Source: Candidatus Melainabacteria bacterium | GTDB lineage: Bacteria; Cyanobacteriota; Vampirovibrionia; Obscuribacterales; Obscuribacteraceae | Assembly (NCBI GenBank): GCA_003963305.1 | Contig: RXJR01000005.1 | Location: 1-64,000 of the forward strand | Length of the DNA stretch: 64,000 nucleotides | Direction: 5' to 3' | In this document: positions 50,546 to 52,660 of the stretch, piece after piece | Numbering within the stretch: the stretch's first letter is position 1 | How the letters are laid out: each line of letters opens with the position of its first letter | Translations under genes and position numbers: made by a program | Notes under the pieces: model-generated | Seen by the model: only the letters and a program-made list of their open reading frames with translations | Database searches by the model: none | Told to the model about the DNA's origin: nothing

Positions 50546-51427
50546 ATGAACGAATTTGATTTGATGGGTCCGCAGTTTTTAGCAATGTACGTCCCAGCCA
50601 CATTTGGCGCCATATTCGGTGCTGTCGTTCTGCGCTACGCTCTGAAAATCAAAGGTGGCGAATACAATGATGTTGAGCTGAGCGCATACGACGCGGCTTA
50701 CCTTAGCGGTGGCGATAGCCGCGTCGTTGACGCCGCAGCCGCTAAGCTCTTAGTTTCTGAAGTATTCACAACAGAGCTTACACAGCGCTCGATCAAAGCG
50801 ACCGGCACTCTGCCGAGCGACGCAGACCCGGTTGAACGCTCGGTTTTTCAGGCAGTAAAAAACCACTATATTTCCAAAGTACGGGACATCTACAAGTACG
50901 TGGTGCCCATCTCGCAGGGCATCCGTCCGAAACTGGTCGAAGCCGGACTGATTCTGGGCGATGCCAGAACTGCGGCAATACGTTCACTTTGCACTCTGAT
51001 TGTGCTCTGTCCGGTAGTTTTCCTGGGCATTCCCAAGTTGCTGCTCGGTCTCTCCAGAGGCAAACCGGTAGGACTTCTCATAGCATTCATATTGATTGGT
51101 CTCGGAGCAGCCTTATGGTTCTTCTGTCAGTCATGCATTCGTACAGCACGCGGCGACGCGGCCCTCTCATTTTTGCAAGCCGAAAACCGCGCCCTGGAAT
51201 ACAGCGTCCGCTACGGCAGCACTCCCACAAGCACAGAACTGGCCATGGCAACGGGTCTCTTCGGAACCACCATCTTGCTCACTTCGCCACTCTTTGCCAC
51301 CATGAAACCGCTCTTTATCACACAAGCCTCCGGCAGTGGATGCGGTAGCGGCAGCGGTGGTAGCGGATGCGGCTCGAGCTGCGGTGGTGGCGGATGTGGT
51401 GGCGGTTGCGGCGGCTGCGGAGGTTAA
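50546..51427 (+). CDS. Membrane protein with TIGR04222-like domain and Gly/Cys tail
   Basis: 293 residues, ATG with GAGG. A membrane segment near the N-terminus (FLAMYVPATFGAIFGAVVL), a soluble region with LSAYDAAYLSGGDSRVVDAA that fits the TIGR04222 (near-uncomplex tail) proteins, then three more hydrophobic segments (about 145-170, 175-200, 230-255). From about residue 263 only Gly, Ser and Cys occur, with six Cys. Known tails of this kind end their proteins and often sit beside DUF692 enzymes. I infer that Cys side chains in the tail are modified by the MNIO enzyme encoded 5 bp downstream, making this an anchored precursor. Confidence 0.85.
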   Translation: MNEFDLMGPQFLAMYVPATFGAIFGAVVLRYALKIKGGEYNDVELSAYDAAYLSGGDSRVVDAAAAKLLVSEVFTTELTQRSIKATGTLPSDADPVERSVFQAVKNHYISKVRDIYKYVVPISQGIRPKLVEAGLILGDARTAAIRSLCTLIVLCPVVFLGIPKLLLGLSRGKPVGLLIAFILIGLGAALWFFCQSCIRTARGDAALSFLQAENRALEYSVRYGSTPTSTELAMATGLFGTTILLTSPLFATMKPLFITQASGSGCGSGSGGSGCGSSCGGGGCGGGCGGCGG

Positions 51428-51432
51428 CGACG

Positions 51433-52251
51433 ATGTTAGGAATAGGTTGGAGACCCGAACTGGCCTGGATGATCCAGAAACGCAAAGATATCGATTTTGT
51501 CGAAATACTGGCAGAAGATTTTTCACCATCCGACAAACCACTGCCACCAATAAAGCAATTGATGAACAGAGGAGTTGATGTGATTATTCACGGCACGACC
51601 CTCAACCTTGGCGGTTCTGAGACTCCAAGCGAAAGTTCGCTGGTACACCTCGACGGTCTGGCCCGGCGTTATGAAAGTGGGCTGGTCAGCGAACATTTAG
51701 CGTTTGTCAAAGCCGGTGGAATGGAATCCGGACATCTCTTACCGATTCAAAGAACGCAGGAGAATCTGGAAATCGTCGTCGAAAACATCATGATTGCCCA
51801 ACAGGCACTGAGTGTTCCACTGGCTATCGAAAACATCGCCACGTTATTTGAATGGCCAGATAACGAAATGAACGAGGCGACGTTCCTGGCAGAAGTACTC
51901 TCAAGAACCGGTGCTTCACTGCTTCTTGATGTAGCCAATCTGTTCGCGAACGCCACCAATCACAACTTCAAAATCGAAGACTACTTGAACAAAATACCTT
52001 TTGAACAACTAGCCTACGTGCATGTGGCAGGCGGAATTTTCAAAGGATCGCTGTATCACGATACGCATTGTCACTCCATTAAGAATCCAGTGCTCAAGCT
52101 GCTGCAAGATGTATGTATGAGAGCCAACTCTCCCAGAGTTCTACTGGAAAGAGATGGAATTTTCCCGGGAAACCTGGATGAAGAATTGAACCACGAACTC
52201 GATATGATCAAAGAGATTTCGCATTCAAAGAGGTTATGCCATGCCCTCTGA
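51433..52251 (+). CDS. DUF692/MNIO multinuclear non-heme iron oxidase
   Basis: 272 residues from ATG 51433; the larger frame starting at 51367 would overlap the Cys-rich tail and has no ribosome site. The TIM-barrel family motifs are complete: GIGWRPEL, VEILAEDF, HGTTLNLG (His53), VSEHLAF (His88), AIENIATL (Glu133), LLLDVANLFANA (Asp166, Asn169), YVHVAGG (His197), HDTHCH (Asp210, His212) and LLERDG (Glu239, Asp241). These are the iron ligands of MbnB, TglH and BufB-type enzymes, which oxidise Cys residues of peptide precursors. Context (Cys/Gly tail before, DUF2063-like gene after) makes a RiPP-type role the best call. Confidence 0.93.
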   Translation: MLGIGWRPELAWMIQKRKDIDFVEILAEDFSPSDKPLPPIKQLMNRGVDVIIHGTTLNLGGSETPSESSLVHLDGLARRYESGLVSEHLAFVKAGGMESGHLLPIQRTQENLEIVVENIMIAQQALSVPLAIENIATLFEWPDNEMNEATFLAEVLSRTGASLLLDVANLFANATNHNFKIEDYLNKIPFEQLAYVHVAGGIFKGSLYHDTHCHSIKNPVLKLLQDVCMRANSPRVLLERDGIFPGNLDEELNHELDMIKEISHSKRLCHAL

Positions 52252-52660
52252 ATCGCGACGAAGACTGGCTTCCAAACAGGCCCAGCTAATGCAGGCACTG
52301 ACTGACGATAAGCCGATGCAGGGTTTTGATGTGAACCGACTGCATGTTACAGCGATCAGCCTGCAACAAAAGAGACTGCGCACAGTCGAACGTGTGCATC
52401 CGTGTCTCAACTCAGCCCTTGGTGAATCATTCGAAGAGCTCTTCGCAGAATACGCAAAAAAACATCCGATTCCAGCGGCAGGACCTCTTGCTGACGGCAA
52501 AGCGTTCATTGAGTATCTGGCTGAATCGGGAAATCTGCCAGCCCACATGTGGCGGGGATATTTCCTCTCAACTGGCTGGAGAACGCCTCGTTACTGGTGG
52601 CTTTTCTTAAAATCCACTCGCGCCTGTTCAGCACTGTTAATCGCCTTCCAGGCCCGCTAA
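52241..52660 (+). CDS. DUF2063-like partner protein of the MNIO enzyme
   Basis: 139 residues, overlapping the MNIO gene by 11 bp. The pattern RLRTVERVHPCLNSALGESF, LFAEYAKKHPIPAAGPLADG and AFIEYLAESG matches the N-terminal DUF2063 domain of the second gene in bufferin-type operons, which binds the precursor and delivers it to the enzyme. The second half is shorter than in full-length partners, ending in a basic hydrophobic segment (TPRYWWLFLKSTRACSALLIAFQAR). The overlap implies coupled translation. Confidence 0.8.
   Translation: MPSESRRRLASKQAQLMQALTDDKPMQGFDVNRLHVTAISLQQKRLRTVERVHPCLNSALGESFEELFAEYAKKHPIPAAGPLADGKAFIEYLAESGNLPAHMWRGYFLSTGWRTPRYWWLFLKSTRACSALLIAFQAR

Follow-up and report, generated by a model that had tools for sequence, protein, structure and literature searches.

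An MNIO enzyme linked to a Gly/Cys-tailed TIGR04222 membrane protein, its putative substrate, in a three-gene cassette of Obscuribacteraceae

We describe a compact operon in which an MNIO (DUF692) enzyme and its partner protein probably oxidise the Gly/Cys tail of a membrane protein encoded in the same three-gene cassette. The operon lies in a stretch of 64,000 nucleotides that was analysed as a whole (the window; contig RXJR01000005.1, forward strand), from the 7.48 Mb draft genome of Candidatus Melainabacteria bacterium (Obscuribacteraceae, GCA_003963305.1). That the tail is the substrate, how exactly it would be modified and what it would do are inferences; the substrate link itself is well supported by comparative genomics. 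Gene order, tail conservation and enzyme fold are presented first, followed by the co-occurrence of Cys tails and MNIOs in other bacteria.

Results

Three close-packed forward-strand genes occupy positions 50546-52660. The first (50546-51427) encodes a TIGR04222-domain membrane protein of 293 aa, the putative MNIO substrate. It is followed by the gene of an MNIO enzyme of the DUF692 (MbnB/TglH/ChrH) family (51433-52251, 272 aa) and by that of a short DUF2063-like partner (52241-52660, 139 aa). The tight packing reported by the first-pass annotation was verified, as all genes are in place, the MNIO start codon is found 5 bp past the TIGR04222 stop codon and the partner gene overlaps the MNIO gene by 11 bp. 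A GGAGG that may act as a Shine-Dalgarno sequence (51419-51423) sits within the final tail codons of the TIGR04222 gene, 9 nt ahead of the MNIO start codon; in the relative G055 a GGAGG is likewise found, 10 nt ahead of the MNIO start.

The membrane protein matches the NCBIfam TIGR04222 profile over residues 14-244 with 124.1 bits (cut-off 43, E 6.7e-36), which bears out its assignment as TIGR04222-like. Its C-terminal 32 residues (51329-51424) are Gly, Ser and Cys only, with 6 Cys, every one of them followed by Gly. The composition is thus as previously annotated, while the length had been given as 31. This is the Cys-rich low-complexity C-terminal segment of the MNIO-linked TIGR04222 subset, and it was found in all 17 family members. 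A sequence resembling CGGGCGG(C)GG closes each of these tails, and the suffix of Gly, Ser and Cys alone contains 4 to 7 Cys. Within the last 45 residues of the 17 proteins, 90 of 98 Cys are followed by Gly. Mean pairwise identity among the 17 proteins is 94% over the final 16 residues vs 30% over residues 1-255, and the DNA identity of the tail codons goes down to 0.69 between genera (differences up to 31%). These figures indicate that the tail is under selection in Obscuribacteraceae.

An AlphaFold2 model of the membrane protein (pLDDT 84.5, 37-row alignment) contains three long hydrophobic helices (9-34, 139-170 and 176-194), while the C-terminal hydrophobic stretch is split into short helices and the tail is disordered. 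A fold search with this model returned nothing under E 1, and its best Z of 7.2 fell among the values of unrelated helical matches; the fold may still be a known one. Three membrane helices would leave the tail and the domain 47-132 facing the same side. Close to the membrane, Lys and Arg have densities of 0.10, 0.18 and 0.20 on the side of this domain and of 0.08 and 0.13 on the opposite one, a bias that weakly favours a cytoplasmic tail. There, the tail would be within direct reach of the MNIO. Antoine et al. 2025 (PMC12452194), in contrast, put the TIGR04222 tail in the periplasm, and if the fourth hydrophobic stretch (hydropathy peak 1.0-1.9) spans the membrane, the tail would indeed face outside, as they proposed.

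The MNIO was identified by PF05114 (249.9 bits, cut-off 25, positions 2-261 of 263). Residues H53, H88, E133, D166, N169, H197, D210, H212 and E239, assigned as metal ligands by motif alignment and not from bound metal, are invariant in 17 MNIO orthologues, in agreement with the annotation of a DUF692 enzyme carrying the ligand motifs of its family. In orthologue G085 the MNIO and the partner are a single protein, modelled with pLDDT 89.8 and pTM 0.87 (25-row alignment). The fold matches of this model concern its MNIO half only, which resembles TglH (8hi7, Z 26.8), MbnB (7dz9, Z 26.0) and 3bww (Z 24.2), with sugar epimerases as next-best matches (Z 17). The TIM-barrel MNIO fold is thereby confirmed at the level of a predicted structure of the fused orthologue. 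Identity as a bufferin-type BufB maturase was rejected, since the MNIO fails the equivalog profile (189 vs 310 bits); it is also under the HvfB cut-off (160 vs 360 bits).

We class the partner, which is encoded directly after the MNIO, among the short proteins of PME-type 2. Its match to PF09836 (DUF2063) spans the full Pfam model and scores 16.6 bits, under the curated cut-off of 27.2, so that the earlier DUF2063-like label holds for coverage and falls short in score. Sub-threshold full-length DUF2063 matches were obtained for 5 of 15 partner members. The partner profile matched actinomycete partners (Prob 97, E 9e-12) and those of the cyanobacterial family f19 (E 3e-6), which in turn matched full-length DUF2063-RRE partners (E 3e-6); these chained matches make the short PME-type 2 label the best fit. 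Direct profile comparison with full-length partners gave a weak match, and a search of the partner alignment against PDB sequences found no relative. In the fused G085 model the partner half is helical, with no complete RRE domain. A PME-type 1 partner (DUF2063 plus full RRE) was discarded on account of the score (16.6 vs 27.2 bits), the length of 139 aa and the incomplete RRE.

TIGR04222 and MNIO genes were searched for in 240 genomes of the class. TIGR04222 matches were found in 18 Obscuribacteraceae genomes, one of which, G113, was dropped (20 bits, reading frame unlike the family). In all 17 others, the window counted, the MNIO gene is immediately downstream of the TIGR04222 gene on the same strand. 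By BLAST, the partner is next to the MNIO in 16 of the 17, with no partner match in G067, and it is fused to the MNIO C-terminus in five (G085, G077, G062, G131 and G089). In G142 the TIGR04222 frame is short at its N-terminus. Since the genes flanking the operon are common only within genera, the conserved unit is exactly TIGR04222, MNIO and partner. A small unannotated precursor beside the operon was also considered and rejected, as only 31 bp separate the partner gene from the next gene and the locus has no other conserved gene. Judged by the 17/17 linkage and by the identity of the tail compared with that of the body, the gene arrangement is far beyond chance. The first-pass annotation had proposed to look in relatives for the same neighbourhood, for retained Cys in the tails and for another substrate gene tracking DUF692: the first two were found in 17 of 17 genomes, and the locus offered no other conserved candidate.

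We extended the comparison to 148 actinomycete genomes, where a tail counted as a Cys tail if the last 60 residues had at least 3 Cys and were half Gly, Ser or Cys, a rule chosen after the tails were seen. Of the 15 TIGR04222 genes followed by an MNIO, 14 encode such a tail; the sole exception, G474, is a second copy that comes after a Cys-tailed gene. Where the genome gave no MNIO match the proportion is 1 of 11, and that single Cys-tailed gene (G425) is 510 bases from the contig end in the downstream direction. The difference gives a Fisher p of 2e-5 when genomes are treated as independent, relatedness being ignored. Where the MNIO is upstream of the TIGR04222 gene, only 2 of 7 have a Cys tail; the five tails without Cys are those of L129 and L130 (G419 and G403), L082, L085 and L087. 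In two actinomycetes, a Cys-tailed TIGR04222 gene coexists with an MNIO at a remote locus. The tails in MNIO-less actinomycetes are mostly Gly/Asp-rich (L102, L104, L112), as if Asp replaced Cys.

Among other cyanobacteria, TIGR04222, MNIO and short partner are consecutive in four f19 genomes, all with Cys tails (4/4). Four more genomes carry a Cys-tailed TIGR04222 protein with no MNIO match, namely G245, G247 and G323 (completeness 99-100) and G017 (91). In G247, G245 and G323 (L066, L067 and L068, respectively) the protein is fused to an N-terminal soluble domain. Because of these four MNIO-less genomes, a Cys tail need not imply MNIO modification, and the tail is evidently used or modified in some way where MNIO is lacking. 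In the genomes surveyed, a downstream MNIO thus nearly always comes with a Cys tail, and the converse fails.

In an MNIO tree of 54 sequences (midpoint rooting, a small sample with some long branches), the TIGR04222-linked MNIOs of Obscuribacteraceae and actinomycetes form one side of a branch (40 rows, support 100/100). The four f19 MNIOs are across that branch, together with MNIOs not linked to TIGR04222, two of them from the host genome. The separation of TIGR04222-linked MNIOs into two clades suggests that MNIOs were recruited twice to the same kind of substrate.

The host genome contains additional MNIO loci. At L051:7302-9409 (contig C4), an MNIO and a full-length DUF2063-type partner of 274 residues are encoded with a precursor-like protein of 95 residues, which starts with a hydrophobic N-terminus and contains 2 Cys (GACKGKDASCK); a small hydrophobic protein encoded about 2 kb beyond may, judged by eye, be DoxX-like. 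At L052:7107-9328 (contig C31), a 109-residue precursor-like protein with 3 Cys precedes a 617-residue MNIO that has a partner-like C-terminal extension; an RND-type efflux protein and a response regulator are encoded nearby. A divergent MNIO-like gene (L053:6980-8152, contig C4; PF05114 96 bits) has no evident small precursor adjoining it.

Discussion

The operon belongs to an arrangement described in 2025 and is not a new type of system. TIGR04222 proteins with Ser/Gly-rich, Cys-containing C-termini had already been put forward as putative MNIO substrates, PME-type 2 partners are present in at least 10% of TIGR04222-MNIO clusters, and numerous TIGR04222 proteins were noted to be without MNIO or without Cys (PMC12452194). 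With the tail-as-substrate idea already in print, the novelty that had been implied for this locus is low. A full-text literature search on TIGR04222 returned a single paper besides that one. As in the published clusters, the protein described here has a C-terminus of Ser/Gly with interspersed Cys and an adjoining MNIO. Those clusters come mostly from Actinomycetota, whereas ours is from an uncultured Cyanobacteriota lineage, with the three genes linked in 16 of 17 genomes, a partner-MNIO fusion in five, and a model and charge counts that favour a cytoplasmic instead of a periplasmic tail.

Other MNIO systems share part of this design. Bufferin and oxazolin operons (BufABC, HvfABC) also combine a precursor, an MNIO and a DUF2063-type partner, with Cys as the target, putatively so in our case. 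However, their precursors are small proteins with a Sec signal peptide and not multi-pass membrane proteins, their partners are full-length DUF2063-RRE proteins and not short ones, and the MNIO described here falls in a separate clade, under both equivalog cut-offs. The methanobactin (MbnABC) and TglHI systems likewise have the MNIO fold (Z 24-27), a partner and a Cys-containing peptide (here, the putative substrate), but they act on a short leader peptide or a scaffold peptide. HvfB needs its partner HvfC to attain the active mixed-valent diiron state, and the two proteins show activity when engineered into an HvfBC fusion (PMC13419390), in parallel with the natural MNIO-partner fusions found here.

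We propose that TIGR04222, MNIO and partner constitute a minimal cassette for modification. Synthesis would begin with the membrane protein, and its Gly/Ser/Cys tail would then be bound by a cytosolic MNIO-partner complex, whose diiron centre would oxidise some or all of the tail Cys. The products could plausibly be thiooxazole-like heterocycles of the kind carried by bufferins and oxazolins. Once mature, the protein would hold its modified Cys at the membrane as an anchored array, which might bind copper or another soft metal, or else have a redox or protective role.

The proposal that MNIO and partner act on the tail came through the genomic checks, with the reservation that the Cys tail is not strictly tied to MNIO. 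Cys tails in genomes lacking MNIO, the five actinomycete MNIO neighbours without tail Cys and a partner without a complete RRE all count against it. It is conceivable, although improbable, that the MNIO modifies the membrane protein outside its tail, or an unlinked substrate, and that the Cys of the tail stay unmodified and serve in metal binding or disulfides. The cyanobacteria that keep Cys tails without MNIO would fit such a scenario, as would the two actinomycetes whose MNIO is distant from the Cys-tailed gene. However, a downstream MNIO is accompanied by a Cys tail in 14/15 actinomycetes, 17/17 Obscuribacteraceae and 4/4 cyanobacteria, and MNIO-less actinomycetes have Gly/Asp-rich tails instead.

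We give still less credit to a co-regulatory or structural linkage, by which the membrane protein would anchor the MNIO-partner complex and the true substrate would be encoded elsewhere. The host genome does have two further MNIO systems whose small Cys-containing precursors have hydrophobic N-termini, which shows that it encodes substrates of this sort, but these precursors adjoin MNIOs of their own; moreover, no other gene is kept beside the operon family-wide, and an anchor would leave the near-invariant tail unexplained. Finally, slippage can yield Gly-rich low-complexity sequence, and a functionless tail in a chance neighbourhood might be imagined. This is scarcely credible, since the tail is conserved at the protein level despite diverged codons and the linkage holds in 17 of 17 genomes while the flanks change; for Obscuribacteraceae we regard it as refuted. 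Oxidation of the tail by MNIO and partner is thus our preferred explanation.

It is tempting to go further and speculate, with considerable doubt, that two MNIO lineages were independently recruited to one cytoplasm-facing Gly/Cys tail. The result would be a permanently anchored surface of modified Cys on the inner membrane face, not an exported peptide. The topology of the tail decides where modification can occur.

Small peptides are the known substrates of MNIOs. If these enzymes also modify the tails of membrane proteins, RiPP-type chemistry reaches proteins that are anchored, and such a tail would represent a metal-binding or redox surface of a new kind. The compact three-gene unit and the five natural MNIO-partner fusions are a good system in which to test this.
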